A stretch of DNA of 64,000 nucleotides from Halothermothrix sp. (lineage in GTDB: Bacteria > Bacillota > Halanaerobiia > DY22613), in NCBI GenBank assembly GCA_016841825.1, contig JAENYK010000017.1:1-64000 (forward strand), in the 5' to 3' direction. A program made the translations under genes and the position numbers. The notes beneath the pieces are model-generated. The model did no database searches and was not told the DNA's origin. It was given only the letters and a program-made list of their open reading frames with translations. Shown piece after piece: positions 39,168 through 39,634 of the stretch (the first letter of the stretch is position 1; each line of letters opens with the position of its first letter).

Positions 39168-39196
39168 TTGACAATTTGATCCGGATAAGGTATACT
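39168..39196 (+). promoter_or_regulatory. SigmaA promoter of the selenoprotein gene
   Basis: A perfect TTGACA (39168-39173) and TATACT (39191-39196) are separated by 17 bases. The predicted start is near 39203. The 55-base leader contains a CCCCCGGGGG palindrome (39218-39227) and then AGAGGAGG before the ATG at 39258. Confidence 0.8.
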
Positions 39197-39257
39197 GGTT
39201 TCAAGAATTAAAACCCCCCGGGGGTAAGGGATTAGATAAAAAAGAGGAGGATTTGTG

Positions 39258-39545
39258 ATGAATCTAAATGTTGTGATAACAGATTCAGCAAAAAAATATC
39301 TGAATACCAGGAATATTAAAGAGGTTACGATTGGTGTAAAAATTACTTCTGGAGGTTGAAAAGGCTTTGTCTTCAAACCCACCGTGCGAGTGGGTAAGCC
39401 AGAAGGAGAAGGGTATCAGGTTTATGCTGTAGACGACTATCAGGTTCATCTATTTAAAGATGCCAGGGTCGGACCTGAAGTGGTAGTTAATGCTCCGGGA
39501 TTTGGGATTTTTCGGAGTCTGAGGGTATCGGGAGTATACCTATGA
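39258..39545 (+). CDS. HesB/IscA-like selenoprotein (in-frame TGA = Sec34)
   Basis: The 95-codon frame runs from ATG 39258 to TGA 39543-39545, with one internal TGA at 39357-39359 (codon 34). Around it the protein reads ITSGG-U-KGFVF, which matches the first conserved cysteine of HesB/IscA proteins (GGCSGF) with Sec in place of Cys. The part after the TGA keeps a HesB-like order: a Y-V-D-D-Y strand, LFKDAR, then NAPGFGIFRS in place of the usual CxC end. The frame, gene-like codon use, AGAGGAGG 7 bases upstream, a perfect promoter and a SECIS-like hairpin 3-41 bases after the TGA all support read-through as selenocysteine. HesB-like selenoproteins are a known family of unknown precise role (metal or Fe-S related by homology). 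Standard gene calling misses or splits it. Confidence 0.88.
39363..39400 (+). promoter_or_regulatory. Bacterial SECIS element
   Basis: Starting 3 bases after the TGA, GGCTT (39363-39367) pairs with AAGCC (39396-39400), and ACCCAC (39377-39382) pairs with GTGGGT (39390-39395), with a 7-base apical loop CGTGCGA (39383-39389) containing GU/GC. The apical loop lies 24-30 bases from the TGA, the spacing needed by SelB. The stem lies inside the coding sequence, as in all bacterial SECIS elements. Confidence 0.8.
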
Positions 39546-39610: not shown

Positions 39611-39634
39611 GACAGGTATATCCTGTCTATTTTA
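39611..39634 (+). terminator. Terminator after the selenoprotein gene
   Basis: GACAGG (39611-39616) and CCTGTC (39622-39627) form a 6-bp stem with a 5-base loop, followed by TATTTTATTT. It lies 65 bases past the selenoprotein stop. Confidence 0.6.

Follow-up and report, generated by a model that had tools for sequence, protein, structure and literature searches.

A probable cysteine-free selenoprotein of the CC/Se motif family with a predicted IscA/SufA-type fold in Halothermothrix sp.

Several described groups of proteins offer points of comparison for a small selenoprotein gene of Halothermothrix sp. The closest is the family annotated as 'CC/Se motif family (seleno)protein' (NF041239), which was predicted in Moorella thermoacetica and which appears in a 2026 review among predicted selenoprotein families, with Moorella as its source, the motif CxxU and one selenocysteine (Sec) (PMC13188914). 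The classic HesB-like selenoproteins (TIGR01911) carry Sec at the position of the first HesB/IscA cysteine, together with a UxGP motif and C-terminal cysteines. SufA, IscA and ErpA are A-type Fe-S carriers with a three-cysteine set, C...CxC, of which the CxC is C-terminal. Here, we compare with these groups a gene located at positions 39258–39545 of the forward strand in a 64,000-nucleotide stretch of a Halothermothrix sp. contig, referred to below as the window. In our estimate, the probability that this gene encodes a selenoprotein of the NF041239 family with an IscA/SufA-type fold is about 0.88, a figure that excludes its role.

A divergent member of the NF041239 family

The reading frame (39258–39542) opens with an ATG at 39258, contains a single in-frame TGA at codon 34 (39357–39359), embedded in the motif SGG-U-KGF, and closes with a TGA stop at 39543–39545, yielding 95 residues when codon 34 is read as Sec. 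Translated through the TGA, the protein hits one curated family, NF041239, over model positions 2–91 of 91 and scores 43.3 bits with Cys substituted for Sec, above the curated cut-off of 40. Taking the TGA as a stop lowers the score to 38 bits (whole-genome E = 6e-9), just under that cut-off. The profile match thus spans the TGA, in agreement with the sequence-only reading of this stretch, which had proposed that the frame runs on through codon 34.

The window protein shares with the family its length, the Sec column, the PxVxxGxP motif that follows Sec and the register of the Sec insertion element (SECIS). It differs from core members, which score up to 95 bits, and has SGGU-K where they have CGGU-A or GGGU-C; as it contains no Cys, the CxxU motif given for the family in the review (PMC13188914) is absent. 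Neither CC nor a Cys near Sec is a strict requirement of the family, given that 13 other Sec-type members above the cut-off also lack Cys. The resulting Cys-free set, 14 of 55 Sec-type members, includes both copies from a genome of a sister genus (G150). A second Cys occurs near Sec in many family members, and vicinal CC is found in 16 of the 19 Cys-type members.

Sampling of 398 genomes across the phylum recovered the family in 90, with a single in-frame TGA in the majority, and in the family sequences that were read out the TGA lies at the same motif position, which is occupied by Cys in Cys-type members. The two sister-genus copies, both with SGG-U, share 55% and 47% identity with the window protein and have 35/58 and 29/58 identities after Sec and 12/29 and 11/29 before it. 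The downstream half is conserved, and codon 34 aligns with Sec or Cys in relatives, two points on which the earlier proposal could have failed. The second of these copies (L078) adjoins fba, an MBL-fold gene and a PHP-type phosphatase gene, as in the window, and therefore represents a syntenic orthologue with the TGA in place; the syntenic orthologue scores 50.8 bits on NF041239. A scan of genome contigs with the single window protein recovered no relative, whereas the same scan with an alignment recovered one, in Candidatus Frackibacter sp. WG13. No similar DNA was found in plasmids. On this comparative evidence, the putative selenoprotein gene is a divergent member of an already known family. 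Elsewhere in the family, one locus (L162, G038:C21) carries three CC/Se family genes within 4 kb, all of which possess the SECIS motif.

The window gene, which has an MBL-fold gene on one side and an aminotransferase-like gene on the other (named from their translations), stands by itself and would be monocistronic, coding for the 95-residue selenoprotein. It is preceded by a sigma-70-type promoter, TTGACA-17-TATACT (39168–39196), recognized by consensus match only; the promoter had been described as perfect, but 11 of the 12 consensus positions match. The predicted Shine-Dalgarno sequence was located as GAGGAGG (39244–39250), 7 nt before the ATG, and a pattern scan identified a terminator-like hairpin, GACAGG-UAUAU-CCUGUC (39611–39627), followed by a T-rich tail. 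The neighbours of the window gene gave no hint of function, and no consistent functional partner emerged from the neighbourhoods of other family members of the single-Sec type. At some distance, the window also contains a T-box leader (385–656; Rfam RF00230, 102 bits).

A subgroup of NF041239 (L128–L137 and L093) is read through two adjacent TGA codons, as in GUUNAFYAPSGLMGKPEN... (for example, L133, G250:C7:3318-3605). This tandem arrangement occurs at 11 places in 10 Bacillota-type genomes, which belong to several families. The upstream and downstream halves of these copies are both conserved (52–66% identical to the G250 copy at seven of the places), and the two Sec residues fall on the CC of Cys-type members. 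A hairpin of 7–8 bp that shows compensatory changes and has a 4-nt loop (mostly GGNN) lies in each copy, 21–24 nt downstream of the second TGA. The tandem-TGA gene is flanked at two loci (L164 and L165) by ORFs resembling aldehyde:ferredoxin oxidoreductase and an iron-only hydrogenase-like ferredoxin (2/2 genomes; names from translations). A search of one literature library for bacterial tandem-UGA selenoproteins returned no paper, and the review cited above gives one Sec for the family; this subgroup may be more novel than the window gene itself.

Selenocysteine insertion at codon 34

The same genome encodes SelA (603 bits) and SelB (408 bits), as well as a tRNA-Sec (68 bits; called tRNA-SeC with anticodon tca by ARAGORN). 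The selD gene (395 bits) adjoins selA and is itself read through an in-frame TGA, in the motif STKAG-U-GCK. All four genes of the selenocysteine pathway that were sought, selA, selB, selC and selD, are accordingly present. General reassignment of TGA was considered and rejected: TGA is the ordinary stop of 15 of the 50 long ORFs of the window.

Downstream of the TGA, an upper hairpin (39377–39395) is formed by ACCCAC (39377–39382) pairing with GUGGGU (39390–39395) around the loop CGUGCGA, and is extended in the predicted fold by a lower stem with the arms GGCUU (39363–39367) and AAGCC (39396–39400). All five lower-stem pairs also are present in one of the sister-genus copies (L077), but the lower stem is not conserved family-wide. 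The loop starts about 23–24 nt past the UGA, in the register of the family, and, as in the bSECIS definition, the hairpin lies just downstream of the UGA and has a G within the first two loop bases. The folding energy of the window hairpin (−13.9 kcal/mol, z = −1.8) is not exceptional alone, and neither the free hairpin energy nor its z-score differs between Sec-type and Cys-type members. For this reason, energy was not used as evidence, and register and covariation were used instead.

With the stem fixed at 17–22 and 30–35 nt past the UGA (counted from 0), at least five of the six upper-stem pairs form in 45 of 56 Sec-type members versus 2 of 18 Cys-type members. Under a synonymous null, the window sequence would be expected to form 4.8 of six pairs, compared with the six observed (P = 0.17), and the mean over the Sec-type set is 4.4 of six, compared with 5.0 observed. 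Thus, many of the hairpin pairs are already favoured by the protein sequence. Because pairing is partly accounted for in this way, covariation was counted, in an alignment of the 34 members with ungapped spacing to the hairpin. Across these members, 94% of the upper-stem cells are paired and 24 cells show changes on both sides, a level of covariation reached by 0 of 500 shuffles; stems slid along the alignment pair in 23–40% of cells only. One pair joins the third positions of a Pro codon and a Val/Ala codon; 31 members have U-A here and three have C-G. The window gene is one of the three, and its C-G for the usual U-A amounts to a change at two synonymous third positions. The synonymous codons of the hairpin are likewise fixed: all 34 aligned members use GTG for the Val, and the Ala/Thr codon preceding it ends in C in 31 of 31, whereas all four codons are used for the conserved Pro seven codons downstream. 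Within the window, the family SECIS motif occurs once, in the 39258–39545 gene, against an expectation of 0.01 (≤2 mismatches). The SECIS-like hairpin suspected from the sequence is thus present, with support that is comparative rather than energetic.

Two readings deny the gene a selenoprotein product. The TGA might be a sequencing error or the mark of a pseudogene, with the second half of the frame a decaying remnant; such an account fits the fact that, under the standard code, the TGA does interrupt the frame. However, the TGA occupies the same codon in the two sister-genus copies and in most family members, the residues downstream are conserved at least as well as those upstream, and the hairpin covaries, which together make error or decay extremely improbable. 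Alternatively, the TGA could be a true stop that releases a 33-residue peptide, in keeping with the terminating function of TGA elsewhere in the window, but 58 residues are conserved beyond the TGA, other family members have Cys codons at the corresponding position and a family SECIS lies in register, and we consider this reading just as improbable. Strong comparative evidence instead argues for SelB- and SECIS-directed insertion of Sec at codon 34: SelB bound to the hairpin just past the UGA would bring Sec-tRNA, and the ribosome would then insert Sec rather than stop. Judging from these sequence comparisons, the 39258–39545 frame, despite its apparent break by a stop codon, almost certainly is a working selenoprotein gene.

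Relationship to HesB/IscA proteins

An AlphaFold2 model built from two sequences has a mean pLDDT of 81 and a pTM of 0.73, with a pLDDT of 68 in the block around Sec. Its best match in the PDB is Escherichia coli SufA (E = 4.8e-5, TM = 0.66), followed by SufA chain B, AQ_1857 and IscA entries, all with a probability of 1.00, and by one integrative model with YneR (9a4q), after which there is a gap to chance matches. In profile–profile comparison, hhalign relates the family to HesB-type proteins with a probability of 97%, aligning GG-Sec with their G-Cys/Sec and placing Sec34 on their first Cys, as the sequence-only reading had supposed for the TGA. Direct HMM searches yielded only traces (TIGR00049, E = 0.04; Pfam Fe-S_biosyn, best E = 0.01, in three of nine members), and a PDB sequence search with the family profile returned only chance-like matches (histones and others) and no IscA; the link came from profile–profile and structure comparison. 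Taken together, these comparisons indicate that the window protein most likely has an IscA/SufA-type fold in which Sec34 takes the place of the first IscA cysteine. The likeness to the A-type carriers extends to the predicted fold and the position of the first ligand, whereas identity in the structural alignment is about 15%, their C-terminal cysteine set is absent and Sec replaces Cys.

The distant relationship to TIGR01911, with Sec in the same column and a predicted fold of the same IscA type, could be taken to mean that the window protein belongs to the classic HesB-like selenoprotein family. Yet TIGR01911 is a separate family model that found no match in the genome at E ≤ 0.001, whereas NF041239 did; the TIGR01911-type relatives that were read mostly keep a Cys-rich C-terminus, whereas the window protein has neither these cysteines nor the UxGP motif. 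We therefore regard TIGR01911 membership as very improbable, and the initial description as HesB/IscA-like stands with respect to fold and distant homology but not as an assignment to that family. HesB/TIGR01911-type proteins with a TGA at the first Cys (L101, L106 and others of L098–L127) do occur in the phylum, the class of the window gene included; all of these proteins score below the TIGR01911 cut-off, and many keep the C-terminal cysteines.

Ligands and possible role of Sec34

The absence of a C-terminal CxC, observed earlier from the sequence, extends to Cys in the protein as a whole, so that Sec34 is its sole thiol or selenol group, in line with the suggestion that Sec could be the only metal or redox ligand. 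Without a Cys in the chain, Sec34 has no partner in its own chain and must act alone or across a dimer. Combined with the predicted IscA-type fold, this suggests either binding through a single ligand or a site that bridges a dimer. As the likeliest role, though with somewhat less than even confidence, we propose that the protein would bind or carry a soft metal or metalloid ion, iron, or sulphide/selenide, with one selenolate per subunit, rather than act as a scaffold in which an entire Fe-S cluster is held by three cysteines of a single chain.

The main alternative role, a somewhat doubtful one in our view, leaves the selenoprotein as it is but makes it a redox catalyst, for example in the reduction of peroxide or oxidized thiols, with an external partner thiol. 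A redox function is assumed for most selenoproteins (PMC13188914), and the second Cys close to Sec in many family members would suit such chemistry. However, the window protein and the 13 other Cys-free Sec-type members offer no Cys with which a selenenic acid could be resolved, and the predicted fold matches that of metal/Fe-S carriers, not that of thioredoxin. The carrier proposal can be phrased more narrowly for the subset of the CC/Se family that includes the window gene, namely, as IscA-fold carriers in which one Sec per subunit replaces the vicinal CC and is the sole metal or chalcogen ligand; in this specific form we consider it possible but rather unlikely.

The class of genes to which this one belongs is already known. 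The seemingly truncated ORF very probably represents a real gene, and the fixed position of the SECIS, together with its covariation, provides a simple DNA signature for finding further members. The NF041239 family is now tied to the IscA/SufA fold, which leads to the hypothesis of metal or chalcogen binding at Sec. A selenoprotein free of Cys would offer a clean system for studying what one selenocysteine does alone, and, if the carrier proposal is true, the Cys-free subset would be a one-selenolate counterpart of the A-type carriers.
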